A stretch of 25,595 bases of DNA from positions 1-25,595 of the IMG/VR virus record IMGVR_UViG_3300031951_001099. One strand, 5' to 3'. Numbering within the stretch: the first letter of the stretch is position 1; each line of letters starts with the position of its first letter. A program made the translations under genes and the position numbers. The notes beneath the pieces were generated by a model. That model saw only the letters and a program-made list of their open reading frames with translations, did not search any database and was not told where the DNA came from. Source of the stretch: a virus. Positions 1 through 19,202 of this stretch are shown piece by piece.

Positions 1-1409
1 TCCTCTTCTTTTATCTTAGATGGATCTAGAATACCTGATAGTGCTGTCCAGTATCTATAGCGGCCAGTCTTTTCTCCTTTTAGTTTTTCACTTGTACTTT
101 TAAACCTTACTTGAATTCTAACTTGATCTCCTACTTTGTCAGAATAGCTATTGTCTATTTTATGTAATTGAGGATTTGTAAAGTTTGAACTTGTAGATAA
201 AACATATTCTGCGCATGCTGGGGAATTAGCTCCAAACTTCTCACGACCAGACATAGCTTCTTTTGTGAAAGCTATTTTAAAAGCTTTGTTTGAAGCAAAT
301 AGTTTCTTTAAAAGATCCATTGCTTTTTTATGAAGTGCTTCTGCCTTGTTAATATCTGCGTCACTGCCTTTTTTAAGAGCTCCACCAACTGTTCCTTTTT
401 TAGTATATCCAACTTGAACAAATTGACTGATAGTATCTTTTAATTCTTGATACAAAGGAGACTTTTCAATGCCAGATACATTTTTTATGGCTGCCGCTAA
501 AGTAGCTTCAGATTCATTTTTACCTGCTGATAATAATTGTGCATTACCTGCTTTAACAGATACCCTAGCAGATCCTAGCATAACATCTGTTTTAGGAGTA
601 TTATCTATAGCTCCAAAGCTTTTCCAGAAGTTAGTAGTATTATAATCTCTTTGAAGTTTATATGCAGAATTTCCTTTAAAGTTACTCTTATATTGGTTTA
701 TAGTTTTAAGTGCGCCTTCATACATTTGCTTGTCAGCTTTAACAGTCTTCACAATTTCAGGAGTTAATTCTCCTTCAACGTATTTATCCTCATCATCTTG
801 AGGTTTAAATACATCATACCAAGCTACAACTAAAGCAAGTTCAAAATTAGATGCTCTTTTAGTATCAGCCTCTTTTACAATAGTACTATTAAGAATACTT
901 TCTAATATTCTAGTTTCTGTCAATTCCTCTTCTCCACCTGCTGCTGGTGTTTCTGCTGGTGGTGTTGGCCCTGCTTCTGTATCTGGTCCTTCTTTATCAC
1001 GAGTTGATTTTTCTGCGCCTTCTGGACCTTGTGTTTTAAGTGGGTTACCGAATCTAAGTAGTCTAGAGATAGCAACCATGCAACGTTCTTTTTCACCTAT
1101 TGCCATCAAATAGTATTTCTTGCCTTGTACAGTTGCTTCATAAGCTTTTCCCATGAACTGTAAAAAGAAGAATTGTCCATTATGAAGAACAATTTTAAAT
1201 GTTGTTGGCTTAGGTGCTACTACATATATACCAGTGATATACTCTTCAAATGAAGGAGTCATCAAGTACTCTAAGGTCTTCTTGAGTCCAGCATACTTTC
1301 TCAATATAAACTGCATAGGATCGTCCTCAAACGTAGAAGTTTCAGGCTCCATTCTATCTAGCTCTTGTAGTAGTATCGTCTTTAATATGTCGTGCTTAGA
1401 CACAGGCAT
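1..1409 (-). CDS. Conserved phage protein of unknown function, two modules, C-terminus cut by window edge
   Basis: An open frame runs from the ATG at 1409-1407 leftward to the edge with no stop (469 codons seen). It starts 2 bases after the stop of the upstream gene. Residues about 30-125 form a module I recognise only as a conserved marine T4-like phage domain (around T-P-S-F-E-E-Y and A-P-K-P-T-T-F). A low-complexity Pro/Gly/Glu linker follows (about 126-180), then a second module from about 180. The second module holds T-D-V-M-L-G-S-A-R-V-S-V-K (274-286) and E-A-M-S-G-x-x-K-F (384-392); the spaced D...S-x-K is weakly reminiscent of nuclease cores. The N-terminus (D-I-L-K-T-I-L-L-Q-E, 7-16) ends in LxE, the prohead-protease-like motif shared with its neighbours. 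More LxE/IxE sites (163-165, 168-170) lie in the linker. The function is unknown; that the gene is real is near certain. Confidence 0.85.
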   Translation of the reverse strand, partial: MPVSKHDILKTILLQELDRMEPETSTFEDDPMQFILRKYAGLKKTLEYLMTPSFEEYITGIYVVAPKPTTFKIVLHNGQFFFLQFMGKAYEATVQGKKYYLMAIGEKERCMVAISRLLRFGNPLKTQGPEGAEKSTRDKEGPDTEAGPTPPAETPAAGGEEELTETRILESILNSTIVKEADTKRASNFELALVVAWYDVFKPQDDEDKYVEGELTPEIVKTVKADKQMYEGALKTINQYKSNFKGNSAYKLQRDYNTTNFWKSFGAIDNTPKTDVMLGSARVSVKAGNAQLLSAGKNESEATLAAAIKNVSGIEKSPLYQELKDTISQFVQVGYTKKGTVGGALKKGSDADINKAEALHKKAMDLLKKLFASNKAFKIAFTKEAMSGREKFGANSPACAEYVLSTSSNFTNPQLHKIDNSYSDKVGDQVRIQVRFKSTSEKLKGEKTGRYRYWTALSGILDPSKIKEE

Positions 1410-1411
1410 TC

Positions 1412-2059
1412 TTATTTTGCTTTTTTAGCAGCGCTTTTCCACATTGCGGCGGCGGCTACTTTTTGTCCTCTTTCTTTTGAACCATATTTTTCAGCAGCGG
1501 CTTTAGCAATCTTCTCAAAGCCTTTGCCTTTCTTTCCAATATCTTTTCCAGCTTTTGCTTTCTTTGAAATAGCTGACTTTTGCTTTTTAGTTAGACCTGC
1601 TGATGGCTTCTTTTTCTCGTCAATCATATCTTCCATAAGACCTGCTAAACTCATATTGTGCATATCATCTACTGGCTCTTCTTCAGTACCATTTGGAAGC
1701 TCATCATAATCAGCTTCACCTTGATCTTCTGGAGATAGTTCATGAAAACCTTGAGCTGCTTGATCGATATAATTCTCAGCATTAGTAATATGATCTTGAA
1801 TCCAGCCTGGGATATTACGCTCATCACTTCCTAACTTAGCTTTAAGCTCCATAGCACTCTTGATGATTGATTCAAGGCTATTATGTGCCATTGATACTTC
1901 ATGGTCTTCTTTCATGCCTTTTTTAGCACGAAGTGCTGCAAAGTCTGCACCAGTGATTTTGTCTTTTGGCTCAGCAGCTCCAGCAATCTTTTTTTGCTTT
2001 GGGCTTAATTCTTGTGCTTCAGAAAGTAGTCTCTTCTTAAGTTCAGTGATGTTTATCAT
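1412..2059 (-). CDS. Basic conserved phage protein, unknown function, with LSE leader
   Basis: 215 residues. The start is fixed by an ATGA overlap with the stop of the upstream gene (2056-2059). The leader ends L-L-S-E|A (residues 11-15), matching the [LI]xE prohead-protease consensus. Residues about 54-106 (E-V-S-M-A-H-N-S-L...W-I-Q-D-H-I-T-N-A) resemble a helical module common in T4-like marine phages. An acidic stretch follows (about 110-150). The C-terminal 60 residues are rich in Lys and Ala and contain F-E-K-I-A-K-A-A-A-E-K-Y-G, ending K-S-A-A-K-K-A-K. The mixed acidic/basic composition and the leader suggest a packaged, possibly DNA-contacting protein. That is inference; no enzymatic motif is visible. 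Confidence 0.85.
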   Translation of the reverse strand: MINITELKKRLLSEAQELSPKQKKIAGAAEPKDKITGADFAALRAKKGMKEDHEVSMAHNSLESIIKSAMELKAKLGSDERNIPGWIQDHITNAENYIDQAAQGFHELSPEDQGEADYDELPNGTEEEPVDDMHNMSLAGLMEDMIDEKKKPSAGLTKKQKSAISKKAKAGKDIGKKGKGFEKIAKAAAEKYGSKERGQKVAAAAMWKSAAKKAK

Positions 2060-2331
2060 TTCTTTTTCTTTTTGTCTAGTTTTCTTTTTACTATTTCTCT
2101 AGTCCTATCCATTTTTCTAGCGTAGGCTGGATCATCTTTACGATTGAAGTTAGCTTGCTGGTTTAATGAGCCTGTTATTTTACTCATGTTACCTTTTCTA
2201 GTTCTGATCAACCAATTGGCTAACTTTTCTACCGACAACTTTTTGAACTTGCCTTTTGCATCAGGCGCATTCGAGTGGTGAAACTTTAGCCTCTCTTCAG
2301 CTATTTCAACTAGTATATCGATTAGTCTCAT
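2056..2331 (-). CDS. Small basic conserved phage protein with MRLIDILVE leader
   Basis: 91 residues. The frame stays open upstream to 2472, but that extension lies over the neighbouring gene in another frame. The ATG at 2331 makes a standard 4-base ATGA overlap with the upstream stop and gives a leader (M-R-L-I-D-I-L-V-E) matching other genes here, so I chose it. The body contains W-L-I-R-T-R-K-G-N and G-S-L-N-Q-Q-A-N-F-N-R, a pattern I recognise from small proteins of other T4-like phages but cannot name. The C-terminus is K-R-K-L-D-K-K-K-K-K. The basic charge suggests nucleic-acid contact (inference). The stop overlaps the next start by 4 bases. Confidence 0.85.
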   Translation of the reverse strand: MRLIDILVEIAEERLKFHHSNAPDAKGKFKKLSVEKLANWLIRTRKGNMSKITGSLNQQANFNRKDDPAYARKMDRTREIVKRKLDKKKKK

Positions 2332-2615
2332 TTTTTCTTCTTTGACTTTTTTGCTCTCTTCCATAACTTCTTGTCTACTTTTCTTGCTCCACCTTTTCCA
2401 GTCACAAACGAGTTTACTCGGCCCATACCCCATTGATGTTGACCAACTCCAGGGCGGTGACCGGTTTTCCAAGCAGCTAAACCTTTAGCATAAACACTTT
2501 TGAGTACAGACTTAGATATACCAGTTGCTTTTGCCTTATTAGACAATGCCTTTTCAACCTCTGAACTATACTCTAATATAAGTATCTGTTTTAATATCTC
2601 TAGATCTAAGTTCAT
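2328..2615 (-). CDS. Small basic DUF5824-like phage protein with LLE-type leader
   Basis: 95 residues starting at an ATG 3 bases after the upstream stop. The leader contains E-I-L-K-Q-I-L-I-L-E|Y (6-16), ending in an IxE site. The central part, K-G-L-A-A-W-K-T-G-H-R-P-G followed by Q-W-G-M-G-R-V-N-S-F (about 45-73), matches my memory of the DUF5824 family found in phages, whose function is not known. The tail is K-R-A-K-K-S-K-K-K-K. It lies in a run of four small basic genes with ATGA overlaps. I am sure of the gene, fairly sure of the family and make no functional claim. Confidence 0.85.
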   Translation of the reverse strand: MNLDLEILKQILILEYSSEVEKALSNKAKATGISKSVLKSVYAKGLAAWKTGHRPGVGQHQWGMGRVNSFVTGKGGARKVDKKLWKRAKKSKKKK

Positions 2616-2618
2616 AGT

Positions 2619-3206
2619 TTACACTTTTTTCTTTAATCCAAAAGCCTTTCTTCTGAGAAGGACAAGCGCTTTATAAACATCTTGATACTCAGGCTTACCT
2701 TTAGCTCTTTCTAAGAACTTAATTATGCTATCTAGTCTATTATGTAGCTCTTGAGGGGTTACATCGTAAGTAACATCCCAACTAACTTTTCCAGTTTCAG
2801 GGTCTTGACCAGTCAATTTTGTTTGTGGTTCAGGAATAGAAGTAGGATCAATATCCTCATTCTTCTTACCAAACCTCTTTTCGTAGGCAGAAGTAGCAGC
2901 GCTTTTCTTAGTCTTGTACTTCTTAGTCTTTCCTTTATCAGCATAATCAGCATCCCACTTGCCATAAGCAGATGGATCGTCTGACTTCAATTTCTTTACT
3001 CTGTCAATCTCACGCTTCATCGCTGCAGCGTCCTTGGTCAAATATGCAGGGTTGATTTTACCTTTTTTCTTCTTGGCTTCACTGACTCTAACACAGTTAG
3101 GAACCATTTTGTCGCCTTTTTTCTTCATTCCTTGCTGCTCGTAACCGTCCCAACAAGCCTCTTGAAGATTAACAGACTCTTTTAATATGTCTATAAGTTT
3201 GATCAA
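2619..3206 (-). CDS. Basic conserved phage protein with MIKLIDILKE leader and TTG start
   Basis: 195 residues. The start codon is TTG, 7 bases after the upstream stop; no ATG lies between. The first ten residues (M-I-K-L-I-D-I-L-K-E) almost repeat those of the kinase gene at 9794-10579, which supports the TTG start. The leader holds two candidate sites, L-K-E|S (8-11) and L-Q-E|A (14-17). A small Cys module follows (C-W-D-G-Y-E...V-P-N-C-V), then a Lys-rich region (about 45-115) with a pattern common in marine phages. A C-terminal helical segment of about 50 residues ends L-K-K-K-V. Function unknown; probably a head-internal or DNA-associated protein (inference). Confidence 0.85.
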   Translation of the reverse strand: MIKLIDILKESVNLQEACWDGYEQQGMKKKGDKMVPNCVRVSEAKKKKGKINPAYLTKDAAAMKREIDRVKKLKSDDPSAYGKWDADYADKGKTKKYKTKKSAATSAYEKRFGKKNEDIDPTSIPEPQTKLTGQDPETGKVSWDVTYDVTPQELHNRLDSIIKFLERAKGKPEYQDVYKALVLLRRKAFGLKKKV

Positions 3207-3213
3207 AGTTTGG

Positions 3214-3777
3214 TTATTTTGATAATCCAGCTAATTCTTGCATTCTTTTAGTTTCTTTATCTTTTATCTTCGTTCTTATTGCCAAACCTTTTTTTGTACG
3301 CACAAGTGGCGATACTATTTGTTTAGACTGAGTTTTTCTAGCAACTACTATAGAAAGTAAAGAAATTACAAAGAATACAAAAAATGCATATAATCCAATT
3401 TTACCCCAAATAGATCCTTCATCAGCTTGTGCTCCATAAAAATTTTGCATTACATTCATAACCTCTTCTTTTGATTTTTGTAAAACAACACTATAATACC
3501 ACTGATTAAATTTAGCATCTAGATACTGAAGATATCCAGCTATTGATGTCGCACCGCTTAAAATAGTTCCAAATACAGATGGTCCTACAATTTTTTGAGC
3601 TATAGAGAATATTTGATCTTTTAATCCTTCTTGTAAAGGCATTTCTGGTCCCTTCACTCCTTTTTCTCCTCCTGATAAATTAACATATTTTTCCCCTTCG
3701 TCAGCATATCTTTTAGCTGCATTCAAAGCAAGACTTTTGATATCTTTTAGTGCAGTCATTAACTTTTTAGTGTCCAT
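3214..3777 (-). CDS. Single-pass membrane protein with LQE site and C-terminal KRMQELAGL tag
   Basis: 187 residues. Residues 1-50 are hydrophilic and end in P-L-Q-E|G (47-51), a match to the prohead-protease consensus. A moderately hydrophobic region follows (53-90). One clear membrane segment lies at about 125-147 (I-G-L-Y-A-F-F-V-F-F-V-I-S-L-L), then a positively charged tail. The tail ends K-R-M-Q-E-L-A-G-L-S-K, an element also found near the N-termini of the proteins at 5450-5782 and 5782-6300. No family recognised. The charge around the membrane segment (basic after it) favours a cytoplasmic C-terminus. It could be a packaged membrane-active protein or an infection-stage membrane protein; the sequence does not decide. 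Confidence 0.8.
   Translation of the reverse strand: MDTKKLMTALKDIKSLALNAAKRYADEGEKYVNLSGGEKGVKGPEMPLQEGLKDQIFSIAQKIVGPSVFGTILSGATSIAGYLQYLDAKFNQWYYSVVLQKSKEEVMNVMQNFYGAQADEGSIWGKIGLYAFFVFFVISLLSIVVARKTQSKQIVSPLVRTKKGLAIRTKIKDKETKRMQELAGLSK
3226..3249 (-). repeat. KRMQELAG element, copy 1 (C-terminal in its gene)
   Basis: A 24-base segment that differs at about 3 positions from each of the segments at 5735-5758 and 6253-6276, all in the same coding frame. Here it encodes the last residues of the membrane protein; in the other two genes it encodes residues about 9-16. Confidence 0.6.
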
Positions 3778-3780
3778 CTT

Positions 3781-4050
3781 TCAATATTTAGTTATTTTAA
3801 CTGTTAAAGTGCCAGTTCCTTTAATGACACGATGCCAATTATATCTAGGAATAAATATCGGCTTGTCGATTAAAGTAGGTAGCTCATTGTCTAGTTGCAT
3901 CATCCAGTCAGTAGGCTCAATAGCCTCAACAAGACGGTCTTCTTGGTCACGATGCCACATTAATTCAATAGGATCAATTGACTCATCAAACACTCTTGTA
4001 ACAGTGTTATGCTCAGCTTTTATTTCCTGGTAAGGTTTCATTGATATCAT
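3781..4050 (-). CDS. Conserved small phage protein, unknown function
   Basis: 89 residues. It overlaps the preceding gene by 38 bases if the first ATG (4050) is used, or by 29 if the ATG at 4041 (M-K-P-Y-Q-E-I-K-A-E) is used; the choice is open. The body reads like a conserved companion of the preceding gene in T4-like phages: E-L-M-W-H-R-D-Q-E-D-R, then T-D-W-M-M-Q-L-D-N-E-L-P, then F-I-P-R-Y-N-W-H-R-V-I-K-G-T-G. The last pattern looks like a short beta-barrel (cupin-like) edge, but this is a guess. No catalytic motif is clear. Confidence 0.75.
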   Translation of the reverse strand: MISMKPYQEIKAEHNTVTRVFDESIDPIELMWHRDQEDRLVEAIEPTDWMMQLDNELPTLIDKPIFIPRYNWHRVIKGTGTLTVKITKY

Positions 4051-4645
4051 AGTAGTATGAATCAGAGTCTTCTGTTACCCACCTATCAGAGATAGATTCA
4101 ACATTTAACAGCTCTGTGTCCACTTTAATCTTTTTTACGTCGATAGGAAAGTCCTTTGTTACCCAGTTGGAATCTTTCCAGAATAGTCTATTATTAGGCT
4201 GACATAATAAATAGCCGTCGTCTGCTACTAAAACATGACCACATTTATAATCAGAAGGCTCATTAGAATAAGTGTTGTTTTGCCAGTCAATTGTAAACAT
4301 ATAAGTAGCCCAAACAAAAGTCTTATCTCTTAAGGCCACTTTGCACTTCTTATCTTTCAAGAAGTCGTATTTGATAATAGCGGCATCTGGCCCAAAACAA
4401 TCCCAAAGCTGTTTGAAATGGTATGGTAGGTCTTTTACAGGAGGTTTGATATATATCTCAGACAGAGGAACCCTCGACCTTAACATGCCATAATCGGTCA
4501 TGATATGAAAGGTCAATATCTTAGAGTCAACAGACTGTACTCCAAATGCATAGCAGTTGTGGAAGATCTTGTCGTCTTTTTGGTCTTTTGTAAAGTAAGA
4601 CTGCTTTACTAGACACTTAAACCCTTCTATATTGTAGTTGAGCAT
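4013..4645 (-). CDS. Conserved T4-like phage protein, unknown function
   Basis: 210 residues, soluble, acidic to neutral, with many aromatics. Recognisable conserved stretches are D-Y-G-M-L-R-S-R-V-P (about 71-80), L-W-D-C-F-G (about 100-105), W-A-T-Y-M-F-T-I-D-W (about 132-141), E-P-S-D-Y-K-C-G-H (about 149-157) and Q-P-N-N-R-L-F-W-K-D. I know this as a widespread hypothetical protein in marine T4-like phages without an assigned role. It overlaps the next gene, and the pair appears to be conserved together. It has no LxE leader, unlike many neighbours. Confidence 0.8.
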   Translation of the reverse strand: MLNYNIEGFKCLVKQSYFTKDQKDDKIFHNCYAFGVQSVDSKILTFHIMTDYGMLRSRVPLSEIYIKPPVKDLPYHFKQLWDCFGPDAAIIKYDFLKDKKCKVALRDKTFVWATYMFTIDWQNNTYSNEPSDYKCGHVLVADDGYLLCQPNNRLFWKDSNWVTKDFPIDVKKIKVDTELLNVESISDRWVTEDSDSYYYDINETLPGNKS

Positions 4646-4649
4646 ACTA

Positions 4650-5453
4650 TTACCAGAATCCTGAGAAGTTAGATTTTAAACCTAACAACTTGGCGTATCT
4701 TGGTAAGCGGCAAGACCAGTATTTTGGAGTTGTCTTGTCTTTAGCTTGAGAACATTTATGTCTAGCTGCAAAACTTCTCCTAGCTTCTGGGTTGTTGATC
4801 TTGGCAGAAAGGCCAGATGTATCACCAAAAGATACCTTCTTGATGCCACCACCAGGTTTACGTACATAAACGTAAAACTTCTTAGAACCACCGCGCTTAG
4901 GTTTATTTAATGCTGGCTGCTTCTTCTTTGCCTTTGATTTAACTTCTAGTAAGAAGTCAACAGTCATAGGAAAGTCTAGAGGTACTTTCACACCATTGTA
5001 GATACCAGTAGTACCTAGGTCAGTGTTCTGAAAATACCACTCATCTTGTTCAGATAGTTGAAGCTTGCCTGATTCGTATAATGATCTTGCCTCTTCAAAT
5101 AAGGCTAGAAAATTTGTAGATTGTGGTCGATAAATAGACTCGTTAAGATCAATCTTATTGTCTAAATGATAAGCTAATCCTTCAGAGATTAGAAGTTTGT
5201 TAGCTGTCTCATGGAGTTGCAGTTTATTTTCTGTTCTGTAGCAATCACATCCATCATCATAGCCTTCTGGCCCTTTATACGCTGGGCTATTTGGCTCTTT
5301 CTCTTCTAAACCAGCTTTAGTTAGTTTATCGTAGTATTTAGGATCTTCTTTAAGGTGATCTAAAGCTATCTTTAAAGCGACACGTTTGTCGTCAGTATGC
5401 TCCATCTCAACTTCAATACCCTTTTTAATTTGGTCAATTGAAGGTTGTTTCAT
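4650..5453 (-). CDS. Multi-module phage protein: DUF5661-like N-terminus plus conserved Cys-containing C-terminal domain
   Basis: 267 residues; the ATG overlaps the upstream stop as ATGA. Residues about 5-50 (K-K-G-I-E-V-E-M-E-H, then A-L-K-I-A-L-D-H-L-K-E, then Y-Y-D-K-L) resemble DUF5661. Residues 65-72 hold D-D-G-C-D-C. The C-terminal domain (about 185-260) reads G-G-S-K-K-F-Y-V-Y-V, L-S-A-K-I-N-N-P-E-A-R, A-A-R-H-K-C-S and Y-W-S-C-R-L-P-R-Y-A-K-L-L-G-L; it is a common T4-like phage module of unknown function with two conserved Cys (234, 248). The linker carries several [LI]xE sites (L-H-E 80-82, I-S-E 89-91, L-N-E 103-105, L-S-E 133-135, L-L-E 168-170), as if the modules could be separated by a head protease (inference). 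Confidence 0.8.
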   Translation of the reverse strand: MKQPSIDQIKKGIEVEMEHTDDKRVALKIALDHLKEDPKYYDKLTKAGLEEKEPNSPAYKGPEGYDDGCDCYRTENKLQLHETANKLLISEGLAYHLDNKIDLNESIYRPQSTNFLALFEEARSLYESGKLQLSEQDEWYFQNTDLGTTGIYNGVKVPLDFPMTVDFLLEVKSKAKKKQPALNKPKRGGSKKFYVYVRKPGGGIKKVSFGDTSGLSAKINNPEARRSFAARHKCSQAKDKTTPKYWSCRLPRYAKLLGLKSNFSGFW

Positions 5454-5782
5454 CGTCTATCTTTTATAGCTTGTACTTCTTCTCTAGATAATGAGGTTGT
5501 AAATTCACATTGTATGTCTAATCCATCTATTCCTACAACATTAACATCACCTCCTACTATCTCACCATCAGGAAGTTGAGCTACAAAGCTTTTTATTAAA
5601 TTTCCAGCTTTAACAACTTCATAAAAAGGTAGCTCATTTGTTTCTTCATTATAGAAAATATCGTATTTCCCTGTTTTAGGGCTGATGTATATACCTAATT
5701 CACTAGGAAGTGTTATTTCAGCTTCTGTTTTAATTCCAGCTAGTTCCTGAATTCTTTTTACTTCTGTCAATTGTTGTTTCAT
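5450..5782 (-). CDS. Small phage protein with MKQQLTEVKRIQELAGI leader
   Basis: 110 residues. The start shares one base with the upstream stop (TAATG) and the stop overlaps the next start (ATGA). The N-terminal 17 residues nearly match those of the neighbouring 172-residue protein although the rest differs. The leader contains L-T-E|V (5-8) and I-Q-E|L (11-14). The body (about 25-110) is predicted mostly beta, with G-I-Y-I-S-P-K-T-G-K-Y-D-I-F-Y and a C-terminal helix. No family recognised. Confidence 0.8.
   Translation of the reverse strand: MKQQLTEVKRIQELAGIKTEAEITLPSELGIYISPKTGKYDIFYNEETNELPFYEVVKAGNLIKSFVAQLPDGEIVGGDVNVVGIDGLDIQCEFTTSLSREEVQAIKDRR
5736..5782 (-). repeat. Leader repeat, copy 2 (47-base imperfect direct repeat)
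   Basis: The first 47 bases of this gene align with 6254-6300 with 6 mismatches and no gap, in the same reading frame. The coding sequences beyond the repeat are unrelated. The inner 24 bases also match copy 1 in the membrane-protein gene. Confidence 0.75.
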
Positions 5783-6300
5783 TACTTAGTTTTTTTATTA
5801 GCTATGCTATCGCCTTTCTTAACAAAGTCAGTTATTGTACTAACTGCATCTTTATTATTGTATTTGGTCAAATCTAATTTAACTCTATCAAATACTTTTT
5901 CCATTTCATAGTCTTTCACTTTTGCTTTTCTTAACCCAAACAATTTTTTTTCTTCTCTTTCAGTATCTATTCTAATATACATTTCAATAAAAATAGAAGA
6001 AAAATCCGCTTGACGAGAATTAGGTGGGGTTGTTCTTGAATTTTCAGCTGGGTAAACAAATACTCTAGTTGATCTTTCTTCACCTATTGGTTTATCAAAT
6101 TCAAAAAGTGAATGAGCGCTAGCCCAATCAGATTGGTATTCACCTTCAGGCAACATTACATGTTCATATCCCATATTTTCCATAGCTGAGATTAAGTCTT
6201 TACCTATGGAACGATAAGTAGCAGAGTTTCCGTCTACTTCATTAATTTGAATACCAGCTAATTGCTGCATTCTTTTTACTTCGTTCAATTGTTGCTTCAT
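5782..6300 (-). CDS. Phage protein with MKQQLNEVKRMQQLAGI leader, unknown function
   Basis: 172 residues. The start overlaps the upstream stop by one base. The leader repeats that of the downstream gene (13 of 17 residues identical) and carries L-N-E|V (5-8) and I-N-E|V (19-22). After about residue 25 the sequence is a mixed alpha/beta domain with Y-E-H-V-M-L-P-E-G-E-Y and F-I-E-M-Y-I-R-I-D, ending in a Lys-rich tail (S-I-A-N-K-K-T-K). No known family is apparent. The shared leader on unrelated bodies suggests the leader is a functional tag rather than part of the fold. Confidence 0.8.
   Translation of the reverse strand: MKQQLNEVKRMQQLAGIQINEVDGNSATYRSIGKDLISAMENMGYEHVMLPEGEYQSDWASAHSLFEFDKPIGEERSTRVFVYPAENSRTTPPNSRQADFSSIFIEMYIRIDTEREEKKLFGLRKAKVKDYEMEKVFDRVKLDLTKYNNKDAVSTITDFVKKGDSIANKKTK
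6254..6300 (-). repeat. Leader repeat, copy 3 (47-base imperfect direct repeat)
   Basis: Partner of 5736-5782 (41 of 47 bases identical). It encodes the first 15 to 16 residues of this gene. Confidence 0.75.
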
Positions 6301-6671
6301 TATTGTAGGAATTTAAGCTTATACTTAGTTGATTCAATTAGCTCAACTACAGTATCAACTTGGTTCTGTATATAAGAATCTTGTGGGATTTGCTTTCTGA
6401 TAGTCTCAACAAACTTAGCTAAACCATCAAAGTACATTCTAGCATTGTTGTCTTCACGAATAGTATCAGCCATCTTGTAGCCTGTTATGATACCATAACG
6501 GCCTTGAATACCTTCAGCAATTGTATCTAATAGAGGAACAATTCCTTCATAATACTCTTGAAGTGCTTTATGCGCAGCAAATGCACCAGAACCTTGTACC
6601 TGTAAATGGTAGATGTGAGCTTGGTTACGAGACTGCATTAACGTGCCTATGAATAGTCCTACTTGATCCAT
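6300..6671 (-). CDS. Helical ferritin/Dps-like phage protein (DUF5856-like), tentative
   Basis: 123 residues, almost all helical. It starts M-D-Q-V-G-L-F-I-G-T-L, with conserved Q-A-H-I-Y-H-L-Q (17-24), A-A-H-K-A-L-Q-E-Y-Y-E-G-I (32-44) and D-T-I-A-E-G-I-Q-G (49-57). The spaced His/Glu residues on predicted helices (H19, H22, H34, E42, E53) resemble the small ferritin-like proteins of T4-like phages that I associate with DUF5856. Metal binding is plausible but not shown. TAATG junctions on both sides place it firmly in the operon. It has no LxE leader. Confidence 0.7.
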   Translation of the reverse strand: MDQVGLFIGTLMQSRNQAHIYHLQVQGSGAFAAHKALQEYYEGIVPLLDTIAEGIQGRYGIITGYKMADTIREDNNARMYFDGLAKFVETIRKQIPQDSYIQNQVDTVVELIESTKYKLKFLQ

Positions 6672-7303
6672 TATTTATCTTTTTTGTCTTCAGCTTTCTT
6701 AATCTCTTTCTTACTCTTCTCGATTCTCTCTAATTTAGTCATTAGATCATCGATCTGTGTAGCGATCTTAGCGATATGCTCTTTATGTTTAGAAGCACTC
6801 TTAGGATCATCTTTAGCTAGAGTTAAATGCTCTTTACGCTTCTTTTCAAGCTGATCGATTGCCTTCTTGATTTTACCAGAAGTAGCGTCTTTCTTCTCTT
6901 CTAGAGCAATTGCTTCATCACAATACTTTTGATATGCTTCAGCCGCAATTTGTTGAGCATCTTCTGCACTAGCGTGTACAGTATGAACATCGTTCATGTC
7001 AATATTAAGAGGCTGGATTCCTTCTAAAGGATTGATCTCATATACCATCTTATCAGCAGTAAGACCTTCCATTGGCTTACGTACCATATACATTTTAGGA
7101 ACCTCTAGCGTCATTTCTTCTTTCTTAACCTTCTTAGGAAGACCTTTATGTTTAGTTGCAGCAAACTTTTCTACATCTGATGGCTTCATTGACTTTGCCA
7201 TTGCTTGAGCTTGTTTAGAAGCTTTACCTGGCTTCATAGCCCCGGTTTGTAAAGCACGAACAATACCCATTAACTTTTGCTGCTGTTTAGATACGGCTGG
7301 CAT
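6671..7303 (-). CDS. DUF3008-like N-terminus fused to a coiled-coil C-terminus
   Basis: 210 residues. Residues 1-56 (M-P-A-V-S-K-Q-Q-Q-K-L-M-G, then A-A-T-K-H-K-G-L-P) match the small DUF3008 family known from phages and bacteria, function unknown. A middle segment (about 60-135) contains M-V-Y-E-I-N-P-L-E-G. The C-terminal 75 residues are a highly charged helix with heptad-like spacing (coiled coil), ending K-K-A-E-D-K-K-D-K. A motif resembling AATATTTAT lies about 17 bases upstream, inside the end of the previous gene. It is probably structural or scaffold-like, but this is inference only. Confidence 0.8.
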   Translation of the reverse strand: MPAVSKQQQKLMGIVRALQTGAMKPGKASKQAQAMAKSMKPSDVEKFAATKHKGLPKKVKKEEMTLEVPKMYMVRKPMEGLTADKMVYEINPLEGIQPLNIDMNDVHTVHASAEDAQQIAAEAYQKYCDEAIALEEKKDATSGKIKKAIDQLEKKRKEHLTLAKDDPKSASKHKEHIAKIATQIDDLMTKLERIEKSKKEIKKAEDKKDK

Positions 7304-7319
7304 ATACTTTTAAGATTTA

Positions 7320-7898
7320 CTAATAAATATCTTGCTTCTTCCATTCTTGGATCCTCTTCTTGAGCTCTTCATGTATGGCCTGTTTGTCTCCACCAGACCA
7401 AGATTCAATATCACCTTGCTCAGAAACAAAGGTATCTTTTTCTTCAAGCCATGAGTCCAAAGCCCTTTCAAAGTCTTCTAGGCTAGCATTCTTATTAGAA
7501 TTGAGAATGTTTTTCTGGTAGTCTTCAAACTTACCTTCAGCTTTTAACTTGTCCTCCATTTTAACCACACAGTCAAAACACATTTGGTGAATAGAAAACA
7601 TCTTCTTGTTAAGATCGTCTACCTTCATAGGTTTACTACAACAAGGGCAAGAAATAGGTAGTATTGCTAAATGCTTAAGTTTGTCTAGCTTAGTAATAGA
7701 CTGCTTGATGCCATTCTTGATGGTCCACTTCTTTCCATCTTCTTCCCAAACATCACCTTCTTTATGATCTTGTGTTTGTTTTTCCCAGCCTGCTTGGACT
7801 TGGGTTCTATCACCAGATTTACCAGTGATTAGGTTTCGCATTCTTTGAACATCGCGTTTCGAAAACTCTTTCTTGAGTGTTGACTCATTAGGTACCAT
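7320..7898 (-). CDS. Zinc-ribbon protein, unknown function
   Basis: 192 residues. The N-terminus M-V-P-N-E-S-T-L-K-K-E-F-S-K-R-D-V-Q-R-M is one I recognise from a conserved T4-like phage protein. A four-Cys zinc-binding unit is visible as C84-P-C86-C87 and H104-x-x-C107-x-x-C110. W-E-x-D-G-x-K-W-T-I (51-60) forms a short beta unit. The C-terminus is helical and charged. A 19-base gap separates it from the upstream gene. It may bind nucleic acid or protein; the sequence does not decide. Confidence 0.8.
   Translation of the reverse strand: MVPNESTLKKEFSKRDVQRMRNLITGKSGDRTQVQAGWEKQTQDHKEGDVWEEDGKKWTIKNGIKQSITKLDKLKHLAILPISCPCCSKPMKVDDLNKKMFSIHQMCFDCVVKMEDKLKAEGKFEDYQKNILNSNKNASLEDFERALDSWLEEKDTFVSEQGDIESWSGGDKQAIHEELKKRIQEWKKQDIY
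7321..7330 (-). promoter_or_regulatory. AATATTTAT-like motif upstream of the DUF3008-like gene
   Basis: Minus-strand ATATTTATTA, 17 bases before the ATG at 7303. It overlaps the last codons of the upstream gene, so it may simply be coding. Listed because similar motifs sit before other starts in the same orientation. Confidence 0.25.
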
Positions 7899-7917
7899 AT
7901 AACTTAACTTTTTGCTA

Positions 7918-9210
7918 CTATATTATTTCAGTTTTTGCTAATACCTCTGGATTAAGGTATTTAGGAATGAACTGCTTATATACTCTGCTACGTTTTTCGT
8001 CTGTTCCTTTAATTATAATATTATCTATTTCTTCTTCATATTGGTAATAGAACTCATTAATTATCTTAGCTATTGTCTGAAGGATATTTCTAGCGTCACC
8101 TTCACCTGTCATCTGAAATGTATCTATCTTGTTAAAGTCTCCTGCATCTATTCCAAATGATACTTCGAACTCTCTAGCTCTTTCTTTTGAGCTGAATATA
8201 ACTTTATACGTATTTTTTTCATTTTTAAAAGTATATTCAACGTCTATTAAACTATTATCCTCTTCATCATATGTAGTATCGTACTCAGAAAAAGGATAAG
8301 CTATCTCTTGTAGTCTAAACTTATCTAATATCGCGCTTACTTGATCATAAGACCTGTACGTGATAGCAATACCACCAATCTCTTTCCATGGAGCAAGATT
8401 TGGATAGTAGTCGTCTATCAACATAGACCTTCTAATCTCTTCTGGCGTTTTGTCTTTGATTGCTTCAAACTTCTTACCAGTATTAGCGAACATAATATCT
8501 TTTGGCTGAGGTGACAAGTTCTCTTTAATCCACTCTAACTTACCTTCTCTAGCGTGAATAAATTTACCTGGGCTTGTCAATATGATTGGGTTATACTTAG
8601 ATATCTTGGTCCACAATTCACGACCTCCTTTTAACCAAGGCATCTTTGACCAATAAACTACACCTACTCTATCTACAGCTTCTTCCATAGCCTTTTGGCC
8701 TTTTTCTTTAGCGTACTCTCTAGGTGGTACACCGTAGTAGTGTTCAAACCTACTGTCGAAGTCGCATAGCACACCGTCCATATCACAATAGATCTGAATA
8801 CGTCCAGACTTTTCTGCCTCATATATTTCTTTTAGTGAAGGAATAACTGTCTCATAAATAAGATCATTGACGCGGCCATAATCACGCATCATAACACCAG
8901 CTAAAGAATTAGCTTGGTTTTCGATCTCAGAGCCAGTGTCTCCAGAACCTGGTTTGATCATGCCTAGTTCGTTTTGTCTATGGTGAACTAGTTCATGGCC
9001 TAGTGTTCTAAGCACATCAGCAAGGTTTCTATTACCTATATAAACTTGTAACGCTTTATCTTGACTATTGTATTGACCAAAACTATGGCGTTTAACAGCC
9101 CATTTTCTGTCATTTACAAACTGAATTTTAGGGAGCTGTTTAATGTCAAGCTTATTTTTGGCAAACTCAACAAAGTCTAATACTATTTCTTGTCTTTGCT
9201 GGTTTGTCAT
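7918..9210 (-). CDS. Zinc metallopeptidase-like domain fused to HAD nucleotidase-like domain and a third phage domain
   Basis: 430 residues; the ATG overlaps the upstream stop (ATGA). Domain 1 (1-120) carries H72-E-L-V-H76 (HExxH zincin signature) and a downstream E95/E97...A-N segment, as in SprT/ImmA-like peptidases. Domain 2 (about 138-298) is a HAD phosphatase close to the NT5C 5'(3')-nucleotidase type: D143-M-D145-G-V (motif I), L-T-S-P (211-214, motif II) and L-I-D-D (264-267, motif IV). Domain 3 (about 303-420) resembles a beta-rich domain found alone in many marine phages, ending S-R-V-Y-K-Q-F. The tripeptides L-K-E (126-128) and L-Q-E (300-302) sit exactly at the two junctions, each followed by Ile. 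It probably acts on nucleotides; the peptidase target is unknown. Confidence 0.8.
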   Translation of the reverse strand: MTNQQRQEIVLDFVEFAKNKLDIKQLPKIQFVNDRKWAVKRHSFGQYNSQDKALQVYIGNRNLADVLRTLGHELVHHRQNELGMIKPGSGDTGSEIENQANSLAGVMMRDYGRVNDLIYETVIPSLKEIYEAEKSGRIQIYCDMDGVLCDFDSRFEHYYGVPPREYAKEKGQKAMEEAVDRVGVVYWSKMPWLKGGRELWTKISKYNPIILTSPGKFIHAREGKLEWIKENLSPQPKDIMFANTGKKFEAIKDKTPEEIRRSMLIDDYYPNLAPWKEIGGIAITYRSYDQVSAILDKFRLQEIAYPFSEYDTTYDEEDNSLIDVEYTFKNEKNTYKVIFSSKERAREFEVSFGIDAGDFNKIDTFQMTGEGDARNILQTIAKIINEFYYQYEEEIDNIIIKGTDEKRSRVYKQFIPKYLNPEVLAKTEII

Positions 9211-9797
9211 TTCATTATCTTTAATAACCTTCCAAATACATCTTTGGTAACTCCTTTGTTATAAGCTGCATCTGGAATAAACTTCTCGAACTCTTTTATG
9301 TTGCCTTGCTTAACAGCCGCACGCATCTGAGTTGCAGATATTCTACCGAACTGGTCAGGTATTACTTCTTTTCTTACACGATCAGGGAATCTTTTCTGTA
9401 TTGCATCAAAATAGCCTAGGCCTTCTACTTCTTCAGCCCCTCCTGCTACATAGACAGGATCAACTTCACGGTTAGCGTCTAGAAAAGAGAAAATGTCTTT
9501 GATAGGTGTAGACTCTTTTGAAATAGTTACCTTGATCTTAGGGTTAGGTTCTGCTTTCAAATACTCTGTCCATATATAAAGAGAGTCTTGTGGTGTTATA
9601 CCAAATTTAGTTACATTTGAAATAACAACATAGACTCTGTTGATATAAGGTTTAGATGCTAAGTATTTGGCAGCTTCGAAGTGACCTTTATGTGGTGGTT
9701 TGAATTTGCCAGGATAAAAGCATGGTCCAACATCTGAAGACGCTTCTCTTAAAATGTCTTCTGCTATTTGTCTACCGATATGGTCTATATTGATCAT
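9207..9797 (-). CDS. Nucleotidyltransferase (NMNAT/cytidylyltransferase-like) with N-terminal LRE leader
   Basis: 196 residues. The class I nucleotidyltransferase signature is clear: Y-P-G-K-F-K-P-P-H36-K-G-H39 (28-39) and I-S-A-T-Q-M-R (153-159, the ISSTxxR motif). Such enzymes transfer a nucleotidyl group (NMN, FMN, pantetheine phosphate or CTP substrates); the exact substrate cannot be read here. Residues 1-18 precede the domain and end I-L-R-E|A (15-19), matching the LxE leader of neighbouring proteins, and could be cleaved without touching the active site. It overlaps the kinase gene upstream and the HAD fusion downstream by 4 bases each, so the three are made together. An NAD-related role is possible, not shown. 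Confidence 0.85.
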   Translation of the reverse strand: MINIDHIGRQIAEDILREASSDVGPCFYPGKFKPPHKGHFEAAKYLASKPYINRVYVVISNVTKFGITPQDSLYIWTEYLKAEPNPKIKVTISKESTPIKDIFSFLDANREVDPVYVAGGAEEVEGLGYFDAIQKRFPDRVRKEVIPDQFGRISATQMRAAVKQGNIKEFEKFIPDAAYNKGVTKDVFGRLLKIMK

Positions 9798-10579
9798 TTG
9801 GAAATAAACGATTTTGCTTTTGAAACAGCTTGGCTCATGTCTTGTACTTTTAAGCTCTCAACCTGCTTCTCAATTTTATCAAACTGCCCAGAAAGTATGT
9901 CTATCTGCTTGTCTACTAGTGCTTTAGACTTTGCTATCTCTTCAGGGCTTTTCTGTTTAGTAGGATCTTTTCTGAATGTTGATTTGAACTCACCAGATGA
10001 TAACAGACTCTCAAAGAACTCTTTCAGCTTGTCTTGCTTGAAAGCCTTTTCAAACTCACCAACCATCTTCTTCTCTTCATCAGACATTGTAGTCTGTACT
10101 AGAAAGAACTTGTCACCAAACGCTTTCTTATACGTCTCAATGTTCTTGTAGATATTGTTCCAGCTACTTAGAACACCGACAGTTGGTACTTTCCTCTCTC
10201 TTTTAAAGTTACGAAGAAAACTAACGATCGGGTTAGAATATACCATGACCATCATGATATCGTAGCCACTATCTTTAATCGACAAGATTCTATCTACATT
10301 TGAAGCAGTAGTGTCGTACAAGAAGTTCTTGCCACTTTTTACCGTCTCAGGAAGGTCTATTTTGTCAATCTTACTAGAAGCTTTGGCAAGATTATTAAAC
10401 ATGTCAGACTCTGGGTCTTCTACATATTTATCTGCATTTAACTCTACCCAGCCATTTTTTACTAGGTCTGGTCTAATCTGTTTAACAAAAGTAGATTTAC
10501 CAACTCCAGCCCCACCAGCCATAATAATTGCCTTCTTCTGGCCTTTCACCTCATTTAATAAGTCTAGTAGCTTAATCAT
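9794..10579 (-). CDS. P-loop kinase, zeta-toxin/polynucleotide-kinase-like, with MIKLLDLLNE leader
   Basis: 261 residues. The Walker A motif is G22-G-A-G-V-G-K28-S-T30. N48-A-D50, D89-T-T91 and an Arg-rich lid (R123, R127, R129) fit the zeta-toxin/kinase group that phosphorylates small molecules or polynucleotide ends. Residues about 165-261 are helical and charged and not typical of the family. The leader M-I-K-L-L-D-L-L-N-E|V nearly repeats the start of the 2619-3206 protein and ends in LxE only about 10 residues before the first strand. No antitoxin-like partner is adjacent, so a toxin-antitoxin role is unlikely. The substrate is unknown. Confidence 0.75.
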   Translation of the reverse strand: MIKLLDLLNEVKGQKKAIIMAGGAGVGKSTFVKQIRPDLVKNGWVELNADKYVEDPESDMFNNLAKASSKIDKIDLPETVKSGKNFLYDTTASNVDRILSIKDSGYDIMMVMVYSNPIVSFLRNFKRERKVPTVGVLSSWNNIYKNIETYKKAFGDKFFLVQTTMSDEEKKMVGEFEKAFKQDKLKEFFESLLSSGEFKSTFRKDPTKQKSPEEIAKSKALVDKQIDILSGQFDKIEKQVESLKVQDMSQAVSKAKSFISK

Positions 10580-10584
10580 ACTAC

Positions 10585-10594
10585 TATAAATATT
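10585..10594 (-). promoter_or_regulatory. AATATTTATA motif upstream of the kinase gene
   Basis: The minus strand reads AATATTTATA 5 bases before the ATG at 10579, one of the few true gaps in the left block. The complement reads TATAAATATT, which contains the T4 late -10 sequence TATAAATA in the opposite direction. Whether this is a promoter, a translation leader or chance cannot be decided. Confidence 0.35.
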
Positions 10595-11388
10595 TACGAC
10601 CCTAACTTAACCGTATTAGGAAGGGTTAAGAGTTCAATGTCAGTCTCTGGGTGCATAATCTTGTAAGTTTCGTAAGTGTGCAAGAACATTTGGAAGTATT
10701 CGTCTAAGGTCTTTTTACCTTCCATGATCTCCCAGCCTGCACCTTGCATTTTCTTCCCAGTCTTATCAGGCCCTCTTTTGCTAGACTTAAGCCAGATAAT
10801 ACCATTACGGTCTACTGTCTGAAGGTATCTCTCTTCATAAGCCTTTGTGTAAGCAGACATCTGTAGATAGTAGCTCTCGTGAATATTGTTAGACGTTTTA
10901 ATATCTAAGATCCACTTCTGACCGTTTAACTCTACAAGTAGATCTAATGTTCCAGAGTACTTATGAGTATCACTATACATAAACTCTTCAGATAGTAGTA
11001 GTGTTGGTTTATAGGTGGTCCAGAAGTCAACAAAAGACAAGATCATCTTCCATACATGTGTATGATAGTTAACTCTACCATCAGACTCAATCCAACGAAT
11101 CTCTTCACCACGAAGAAACTTTTCTACGGCTTCATGTACTTGTGTTCCTTCATCACCAGCACGCCTCATAACAATATCAGCATTATGTCCCATGTCTTTC
11201 AACCATGTTTCAAAGAAAGAACCTTTAGGGAAATAGCCTAAGATTGTAGTGACAGAAGGATAAAAAACACCAGGAGACCTTTGATAGTATCTAGAGTCGT
11301 GAAGTGTGATTTGTCTAAGATCAGGATCAGTTTCAACAATACGTTTCAAGAATTTATCCTTGTAAACGTTCTTTGACTGTTCAATCAT
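10594..11388 (-). CDS. PD-(D/E)XK nuclease, RecB/Cas4-like exonuclease family
   Basis: 264 residues. The RecB-family nuclease motif order is visible: G-T-Q-V-H85-E (81-86), E134/E135, G-T-L-D149-L-L, L-D162-I-K164-T, then Y-Y-L-Q176-M-S-A-Y (173-180). These residues bind metal and cleave DNA in the family. T4-like phages carry related nucleases near primase/helicase genes, which fits the adjacent primase (4-base overlap). Probable role: DNA processing during replication or recombination. It has no leader of the LxE type, as expected for a replication protein. Confidence 0.85.
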   Translation of the reverse strand: MIEQSKNVYKDKFLKRIVETDPDLRQITLHDSRYYQRSPGVFYPSVTTILGYFPKGSFFETWLKDMGHNADIVMRRAGDEGTQVHEAVEKFLRGEEIRWIESDGRVNYHTHVWKMILSFVDFWTTYKPTLLLSEEFMYSDTHKYSGTLDLLVELNGQKWILDIKTSNNIHESYYLQMSAYTKAYEERYLQTVDRNGIIWLKSSKRGPDKTGKKMQGAGWEIMEGKKTLDEYFQMFLHTYETYKIMHPETDIELLTLPNTVKLGS

Positions 11389-12314
11389 ATTAATTGAATT
11401 TTCTTGAGTAGAAGGTCTGCAAATGAAAGTGGCTTTGCTTTGTGTAGCAGTTTAGTCATGTATTCAAAGCCTAGATCCGATGGATCTTTTCCTTCTAACT
11501 CGATTAAATATACCTCTTTCCCATGATCGAGAAGAGTTTGTGAATAATTAAGAGCTTCTTTTAAAGCGTCTTTGTCTAATGCTAAATATACTGTTTTTAC
11601 TTCAGATTCTACTAATTTCATCATGAGTGACTTAGGAATAGTCTTTCCAAATAATGGGATTGCGTTACGTTTAATTGCAATCGCATCAAAGATTCCTTCA
11701 CATAGTATAACTGGAACAGACCAATTAACGAAGTACTCAAGCCCTATCAATTCTGTTTTATTACAACTTGGTGCGTCTATTTTCTGAAATGGATCTTTCT
11801 CAAATGATCTTGCTATGAAGTAGTTGATGTTCCCATCACTATTATAAGAAGGAACCACAATCTTATTTCTGTATCTTCCAGTCTTACAATAGCCGATGTT
11901 GTATTTTTGTATGTCTTGTAGACTGATCTGTCTTTTCTTCAAATAAGCTAAAGCGTGTCTTGCTTCTAGTGACTTATCTGGGTTAGATAAAGAGATAAAT
12001 TCTTCTGGTAGGGTTACTTTATTAGACTTCGTGGTATCAATCTTGGTATTGTCTCCTTGAAAATAGGTTTTCATCTCAAGTGTCTTCTCTGTTGGTGCAT
12101 CGATCTTTTTAAAGAGTGACACTGGTGTTTTACCTTTTGTAGCCGGGTGACAAGTCCAACAGTTATATTGGCCAGTCTTGATATTGATTATAAGTTTAGG
12201 GTTATGGTGTTTACATATAGGGCAATAGAAAGCGTAGTCCATAGTAGTCTTTGAACCCTTTCCTTTACCTAATACTGTCTCCAGAAGACCTAAAACGAGT
12301 AATTCTTTGTCCAT
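11385..12314 (-). CDS. DNA primase (zinc ribbon plus TOPRIM)
   Basis: 309 residues. The zinc ribbon is Y-C31-P-I-C34 and N-C52-W-T-C55 (with nearby His). The primase core follows from about 115 (A-Y-L-K-K-R-Q-I-S...Y-N-I-G-Y). The TOPRIM residues are E206-G (L-C-E-G-I-F-D) and D247-K-D249 (L-A-L-D-K-D-A). This matches a compact phage DnaG-type primase, the functional counterpart of T4 gp61, that makes RNA primers for lagging-strand synthesis. It is the first gene of the leftward block, beginning 354 bases from the first rightward gene. The upstream leader is A/T-rich without a Shine-Dalgarno sequence. Confidence 0.9.
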   Translation of the reverse strand: MDKELLVLGLLETVLGKGKGSKTTMDYAFYCPICKHHNPKLIINIKTGQYNCWTCHPATKGKTPVSLFKKIDAPTEKTLEMKTYFQGDNTKIDTTKSNKVTLPEEFISLSNPDKSLEARHALAYLKKRQISLQDIQKYNIGYCKTGRYRNKIVVPSYNSDGNINYFIARSFEKDPFQKIDAPSCNKTELIGLEYFVNWSVPVILCEGIFDAIAIKRNAIPLFGKTIPKSLMMKLVESEVKTVYLALDKDALKEALNYSQTLLDHGKEVYLIELEGKDPSDLGFEYMTKLLHKAKPLSFADLLLKKIQLI

Positions 12315-18758: not shown

Positions 18759-19202
18759 ATGGCACAAATTGATGCACTAAAGAAGCTTATCCGTGAAGAA
18801 CTCAGAGCTGTTCTAAGAGAAGAACTACCTAAACTTCTCAAAGAAGTACAGGCTCCTGCGGTAAAATCTCCTCAGAAGAGCTTACAAGAACAGGTTAAGG
18901 CTAAGATCCCTGGTACTTTAAACACTCAGGCTTCTATGCCTCAGATCAAATTTGATACATCAAACCCTATGGCAGCCTTTTTGAATGATACGGCTAAGTC
19001 TATGCTTCAAGAAGACTTTTCTATGACGTCGGCAGATGTTCATCCGGCTTTAGCCTTCCAACCTAGTCAAGTTAAAGTAGGTAGTGTTGAAGGAATGTTA
19101 GGATCCGCTAAACCTAGCTCAAACATAAATGCTGTTCAGATCAATGAGGTTCCAGACTTCTCTGCTCTAATGGGTAAATTAAAAGAACAAGGTCAAATCT
19201 AA
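18759..19202 (+). CDS. Small protein upstream of gp25, probably structural
   Basis: 147 residues. The first 30 residues are a charged amphipathic helix (K-K-L-I-R-E-E-L-R-A-V-L-R-E-E-L). The rest is low in predicted structure, with many Ser, Pro and Gln and the motif A-D-V-H-P-A-L-A-F-Q-P-S. It shares one base with the gp25 start. I recall similar proteins beside gp25 in related phages, function not known. Confidence 0.7.
   Translation: MAQIDALKKLIREELRAVLREELPKLLKEVQAPAVKSPQKSLQEQVKAKIPGTLNTQASMPQIKFDTSNPMAAFLNDTAKSMLQEDFSMTSADVHPALAFQPSQVKVGSVEGMLGSAKPSSNINAVQINEVPDFSALMGKLKEQGQI

Follow-up and report, generated by a model that had tools for sequence, protein, structure and literature searches.

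What makes unrelated proteins of one virus start with the same short peptide? This question is raised by the window analysed here, a 25.6 kb virus fragment from an uncultured marine T4-like myophage (IMG/VR record IMGVR_UViG_3300031951_001099, all 25,595 nucleotides), in which the proteins of nine genes begin with a short peptide that ends in [LI]xE. Our results suggest that these leaders are, very likely, capsid-targeting sequences (CTS) of T4-type head assembly, and that the cargo behind them would be packaged, trimmed and presumably injected. Two findings are new: one type of leader, KRMQxLAGI, matches by sequence the tail of the head scaffold protein, and the gene at 3-1409 encodes a constant carrier with exchanged cargo, near-identical DNA flanking cargo that appears unrelated.

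Leaders in the window

Three wordings of the leader, here called dialects, recur at protein starts in IMG/VR: dialect 1, MIKLxDILxE; dialect 2, MKQQLNExKRMQxLAGI[IL]xE; and dialect 3, xLKKFLxENKLT. An earlier note on this DNA had quoted [LI]xE leaders for the nine window genes, and every one of them was confirmed. Two leader-like sites were added to them, the C-terminus of gene 3214-3777 and an internal site of gene 3-1409 (residues 163-180). The leaders and the C-terminal site are as follows, a slash marking the predicted cut.

1362-1409, minus strand: leader MPVSKHDILKTILLQE of gene 3-1409, kept in homologues of relatives, with [LI]xE as ILLQE, ILLKE or ILLNE
2018-2059, minus strand: leader MINITELKKRLLSE/A of gene 1412-2059; the wording varies among relatives, the [LI]xE-like sites being mostly kept
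2305-2331, minus strand: leader MRLIDILVE of gene 2056-2331; relatives have MKLQELLQQLVEE and MRLIDILTE
2571-2615, minus strand: leader MNLDLEILKQILILE of gene 2328-2615 (DUF5824 body), kept by about 20 relatives as MINKLDILKQILILE
3177-3206, minus strand: dialect-1 leader MIKLIDILKE/S of gene 2619-3206 (TTG start), found in relatives and IMG/VR; a relative shares this leader, as MIKLIDILKEAVNLQEACW
3217-3249, minus strand: scaffold-tail-like C-terminal motif KRMQELAGLSK (then stop) of gene 3214-3777, matching the last residues of scaffold proteins
5717-5782, minus strand: dialect-2 leader MKQQLTEVKRIQELAGIKTEAE of gene 5450-5782, with N-terminal LAGI motif
6238-6300, minus strand: dialect-2 leader MKQQLNEVKRMQQLAGIQINE/V of gene 5782-6300, with LAGI motif and then INE
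9744-9797, minus strand: leader MINIDHIGRQIAEDILRE/A of the nucleotidyltransferase-like gene 9207-9797; D[IL]LKE[AG] is kept in 39 homologues
10550-10579, minus strand: leader MIKLLDLLNE/V of the P-loop kinase gene 9794-10579, which matches Zeta_toxin (PF06414); among 42 kinase homologues nearly all full-length ones have a T4-register leader

The bare tripeptide proved uninformative as a signal, while the shared wording, which the earlier note had held to be the stronger argument, goes far beyond chance. Within the first 18 residues, [LI]xE occurs in 9/17 genes of the left block and 6/18 of the right block, and shuffled N-termini predict 9.8 of the 35 window genes with it, against 15 observed. 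Since the blocks do not differ significantly, counting the bare tripeptide as evidence was rejected. Contrary to what had been claimed, the primase does contain one (MDKELLVLGLLE), and so do several plus-strand genes (12669, 13150, 15023 and 18759).

Residues 4 and 7 of T4 IPIII are involved in targeting and residues 8 and 10 in processing (PMC9026906), and the same register is found in MIKLIDILKE and MIKLLDLLNE (hydrophobic residues at 4 and 7, [IL] at 8, E at 10), which applies to dialect 1 only. The corresponding pattern, M..[hydrophobic]..[hydrophobic][LI].E, is present in 2/35 window genes versus 0.1 expected, and in 5/200 genes versus 0.3 expected in G001, a near-complete close relative of 162 kb.

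As a separate observation, the plus-strand protein 18759-19202, beside a gp25-like baseplate gene, starts MAQIDALKKLIREELRAVLREELPKLLKE, which is kept in relatives and in gp157 of Flavobacterium phage immuto. This leader-like [LI]xE repeat lies in the tail operon and is perhaps a coiled coil.

Leader dialects across IMG/VR

The dialects were scanned in IMG/VR as degenerate DNA patterns. Each gave at least 120 stretches, so the counts in this and the following sections are those among the matches listed. KRMQ.LAGI was found in at least 120 stretches, compared to 2 for a scrambled-order control; of 128 matches, 82 were N-terminal, 41 exactly C-terminal and 5 other. Dialect 1 stood at stop-bounded N-termini in 145/150 cases, a placement partly due to construction because the pattern contains ATG, and dialect 3, whose pattern has no ATG, in 133/144. 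Eleven genomes (225,060 residues) contain the LAGI motif 16 times, 16/16 at protein termini, against 0.1 in shuffles. Directly behind LAGI, [LI]xE follows in 74/82 dialect-2 leaders (5.5% background in bodies), 52/82 having the exact LAGI-[IL]xE at offset +1. A tblastn search with a 21-residue leader against phages gave no match.

These numbers bear on chance as the source of the shared leaders, that is, on the idea that [LI]xE is common and that the peptides are ordinary amphipathic N-termini. The similar tripeptide counts of the two blocks speak for it, but the scrambled control, the strictly terminal placement and the enrichment in immuto described below refute it, and we give it practically no weight.

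Behind the N-terminal leaders we counted 354 bodies in 181 families (blastp 1e-4), a number that depends on the threshold; short bodies may hide some homology. Four of the 181 families are found behind two or more dialects.

At most positions the leader codons are about as varied as those of the bodies, which places selection mainly on the protein. There are two exceptions. At position 7 of the dialect-1 leaders (L205-L323), isoleucine is encoded by ATA in 122 of the 129 different DNA sequences, although the bodies use ATT, ATA and ATC freely, and position 5 of dialect 3 is TTA in 58/66. Such uniformity, together with leaders swapped on one body, would fit a module for translation initiation or recombination, in which a DNA or RNA start region is conserved and copied among genes and has no function as a peptide. 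We consider this very improbable, because most positions are as synonymous-diverse as the bodies, the same peptide stands at protein C-termini, where initiation is irrelevant, [LI]xE keeps a fixed spacing, and homologous bodies are preceded by different dialects.

Note that LKKFLxENKLT also lies inside long in-frame fusions, behind a protein ending in [LI]xE (L333, L339, L341, L390, L392 and L428; one junction reads VEALQENR-MENFDLKKFL). The arrangement suggests polyprotein-like cargo that would be cut at internal leaders.

A leader that matches the scaffold tail

KRMQxLAGI has its counterpart at the very end of the head scaffold protein, which closes with RWQKLAGIK before the stop and is encoded in gp22 position, beside gp23. 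In support of this, all nine scaffolds from contigs holding head genes (9/9) end in [SN]RWQxLAGI, and 34/41 of the C-terminal KRMQ.LAGI matches in IMG/VR are scaffold homologues. Read most simply, the cargo would borrow the docking peptide of the scaffold and then be cut free. Thus, the leader probably docks cargo in the scaffold's manner, and we infer that the scaffold tail binds to shell or core. We found no resolved account in the open-licence literature of how the T4 CTS binds the prohead core, and the identity of tag and scaffold tail offers a testable answer.

Proteins tagged at both ends occur in L147 and L198: an amphipathic [LI]xE leader stands at the N-terminus and a KRMQxLAGI tail at the C-terminus.

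Protease, substrates and placement near the head genes

The earlier note had proposed looking for a gp21-like protease elsewhere in the genome and for its head substrates, and relatives supplied both. An S77 protease is present on 8/13 close relatives, each of the eight carrying gp23 as well. It also occurs on 18/22 long contigs with leaders, as well as in immuto, HTVC008M and Melnitz. The likely substrates carry matching sites. The major capsid proteins (MCP) of eight relatives start MANLVQSLLTE/S and keep QLV[VI]E/S (as in QLVVE/S), which by inspection corresponds to FLTE/A of T4 gp23, and the protease itself starts MSKQLLIE, resembling MNEPQLLIE of T4 gp21. When a profile of 33 dialect-1 leaders was run blind over 257 called T4 N-termini, gp24, MAKINELLRE/S, a substrate of gp21, came first, with 9.5 versus 4.4 for the next.

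The leaders are concentrated between primase and MCP, both in immuto, the nearest cultured relative by primase (40% identity), and in G001. The earlier note had suggested counting enrichment against replication genes; against the rest of the genome, an enrichment was found in each: 12/30 versus 6/192 genes in immuto (p=4e-8) and 6/28 near the head genes versus 6/172 in G001 (p=0.0023). None of the immuto leaders is on a gene annotated for replication, nucleotide metabolism, tail or lysis, except the 5' nucleotidase gp184. G001, whose nuclease is 89% identical (L034), keeps the gene order of the window, and beyond the window's left edge it has terminase, portal, S77 protease, scaffold and gp23. 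Because this order runs on into the head genes, the left block lies on the head-gene strand and adjoins them.

A constant carrier with exchanged cargo

Gene 3-1409 has three parts behind its leader.

960-1361, minus strand: carrier domain and P/E-rich linker (residues 17-150), conserved while the C-terminus is exchanged
870-923, minus strand: putative internal leader-like cleavage junction LTETRILESILNSTIVKE (residues 163-180), at which DNA identity between relatives collapses
3-869, minus strand: exchanged C-terminal cargo of class a, by its AlphaFold model a probable restriction-endonuclease-like nuclease, cut by the window edge

Over residues 1-120, close relatives share 87-100% identity, which falls to 55-60% for the most distant one, L038; G004, G006, G008 and L023 are 100% identical there. 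Beyond residue 190, identity between cargo classes is at noise level. In the same four relatives, DNA identity is about 83-100% between the start codon and roughly +480 nt, falls at the internal EELTES[RK]ILE site, and is back to 93-95% within 20 nt past the stop. That all classes are mutually unrelated was rejected, because hhalign joins b and d (96%, E 2e-9); a versus b, a versus d, b versus c and c versus d gave nothing, so at the level of sequence comparison there are at least three mutually undetectable classes.

The class-a model is of medium confidence (pLDDT 69). Its only PDB matches below E 1 are HinP1I, HinP1I again and MspI (E 0.03-0.05; next 2.7), and it also matches structures of uncharacterised cyanophage proteins (E about 1e-6). 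Five homologues have an invariant TD-x(8)-SVK, with I/V allowed at the mid-position and S instead of the canonical D/E. The model thus points to a cargo that is probably a restriction-endonuclease-like nuclease, whereas the class-d model was too poor for use (pLDDT 56, pTM 0.33). A stand-alone orthologue of the class-a cargo in Melnitz (37% identity, E 4e-55) starts with a T4-type leader, MQGFKTFLSE/A, whose E at residue 10 aligns with E at residue 180 of the internal site (IVKE/A) with zero offset. Since the end of the Melnitz leader is in register with the internal site, the two architectures predict one mature N-terminus. Self-protection by 7-deazaguanine, as in immuto, was rejected: no QueC or TGT was found in G001, G003 or G004.

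On balance we lean towards a modular delivery system, in which one dialect would be a docking tail transplanted from the scaffold that works at the N- or the C-terminus alike. Gene 3-1409 would be a dedicated carrier that exchanges its effector as a cassette, bounded by an internal protease site and the stop codon, so that near-identical carriers inject different, probably DNA-attacking, effectors.

Cargo and proposed delivery

The leader-bearing bodies include P-loop/Zeta-like kinases, RimK ATP-grasp, NUDIX, HD and RNase T proteins, a lysozyme with M23, and an Acb1-like 2H phosphoesterase. The latter, L166, scored 26.8 bits against Acb1 PF23474 (cut-off 27, E 4.8e-6). It and its homologue L308, which bear two different dialects, carry HCT/HMT and HTT/HLT, in line with the HxT/HxT tetrad of Acb1 given in PMC9117128. 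In T4, IPI and IPIII act against the defences of the host (PMC3012670, PMC9391042), and for this reason an injected anti-defence role of the cargo is, by analogy, our favoured reading. A PADLOC scan of the cargo gave scattered single matches, which were not interpreted.

In the mechanism we propose, the N-terminal peptide would bring a cargo protein into the scaffold core within the forming prohead, and the S77 (gp21-type) protease would then cut behind the [LI]xE at its end. The freed cargo would remain in the head beside the DNA and would presumably be injected when the phage next infects a cell. Parts of the head machinery seem to be copied in two dialects: KRMQxLAGI equals the scaffold tail, and MIKLxDILxE resembles the capsid-protein starts of the relatives' MCP and T4 gp24. 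In gene 3-1409 the leader stands on the constant carrier domain, behind which come the predicted internal cleavage site and cargo swapped between close relatives.

The same peptides could instead direct proteins to the assembling head or a membrane-bound initiation site as scaffold-associated assembly factors that are not delivered. The tail in common with the scaffold and the nearby head genes agree with this, and in T4, core proteins such as gp67/68 are for the most part gone once the head is mature (PMC9026906). We nevertheless think it unlikely, since kinase, Acb1-like, RimK, NUDIX, restriction-like nuclease and lysozyme/M23 bodies are odd enzymes for assembly, and 181 families with turnover look like anti-defence cargo.

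Several points weigh against delivery by CTS. About half of the left-block genes have no leader (e.g. 4650, 6300, 6671, 7320, 7918), which limits the reading, and inside the window alone the enrichment does not reach significance (p=0.076). Gene 5450-5782 has no clean [LI]xE directly behind LAGI. The protease gene, known from relatives, is absent from the 25.6 kb fragment. T4 IPII and IPIII rank 27-28 of 257 with the dialect-1 profile, and Alt 36, so that sequence does not establish that the leaders form one family with the T4 internal proteins, or a relation to the T4 sequence MKTYQEFIAE. The uniform codons at some dialect-1 positions, ATA above all, may reflect a contribution at the DNA level or from copying. 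Finally, we found no virion proteomics of immuto or relatives in the open-licence literature, and no N-terminal data for any member.

Injected proteins decide who wins the first minutes of infection, and this set had been unknown for uncultured marine phages. Once such a tag can be read, many 'hypothetical' proteins become predicted virion cargo, among them an Acb1-like enzyme against the cyclic oligonucleotide-based antiphage signalling system (CBASS). A carrier with exchangeable cargo marks a hot spot of phage-host conflict and provides a natural model for protein delivery that can be programmed.

Neighbouring genes and parallel blocks

The contigs are metagenomic and gene starts come from a simple caller. 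The leader-free boundary of the block is:

10594-12314, minus strand: PD-(D/E)XK nuclease and DnaG-like primase, boundary genes without leader (Pfam near cut-off; order matches immuto)

Window gene 7918-9210 fuses a metallopeptidase-like start (HELVHH) with NT5C-like and DUF6934 segments and has no leader, unlike the immuto NT5C protein gp184, which has the leader MKKVMGNLADLLLEES. In L207:8531-9763, kinase and NT5C-like domains are fused behind a single MIKLFDILQE leader; their window counterparts are separate (9794-10579 and 7918-9210), with a leader on the kinase only. The public annotation of immuto (MW353175) looks wrong in places, the scaffold gp204 being labelled DNA polymerase phi-like and the small leader proteins gp189 and gp194 TiaS and PduO.

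The cultured Kyanoviridae HTVC008M and Melnitz (L449, L450) have a parallel cargo block behind the primase-helicase, with T4-like leaders (MKKFSEIIE/A on a nucleotidyltransferase, MQGFKTFLSE/A on the nuclease). Their nicotinamide mononucleotide adenylyltransferase showed no blastp homology to that of the window, and we therefore claim motif-level similarity alone.

Comparison with known systems

The T-even internal proteins are highly diverse defence proteins with only the CTS conserved (PMC3012670). As in T4 IPI, IPII, IPIII and Alt, which are processed by gp21, the leaders described here are short N-terminal peptides ending in [LI]xE, in a 10-residue register, on diverse bodies and with an S77 protease (here in relatives). 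They differ in their words (MIKLxDILxE, KRMQxLAGI, LKKFLxENKLT), with several dialects per genome, in the many more bodies (181 families sampled), in the identity of one dialect with the scaffold C-terminus, and in the carrier gene with its predicted internal cut and exchanged cargo. The propeptides of T4 gp24 and gp23 are similar, gp24 being the best dialect-1 match in T4, but those are shell proteins and the leaders here are on non-structural bodies.

Polymorphic toxins combine a constant trafficking part with a C-terminal effector that is exchanged behind a protease-site junction. Gene 3-1409 has the same layout, with trafficking predicted to the phage prohead and not to a secretion system; beside its cargo no immunity gene is identified, none having been looked for.

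The ejection proteins of SPN3US and phiKZ are packaged, and their N-terminal propeptides are cut by the phage prohead protease (PMC5694885). The identical 15-residue N-termini of the diverged gp53 and gp54 recall the shared leaders, whereas those propeptides are mostly longer than 100 residues and cut after other motifs; scaffold-tail identity is not reported there, nor is a gp22 counterpart confirmed. Finally, the T4 anti-CBASS enzyme Acb1 is 57B, encoded beside ipI, and the available text of PMC9117128 mentions no such leader; here an Acb1-like body stands on two different leaders, which predicts that the enzyme would be preloaded in the virion.

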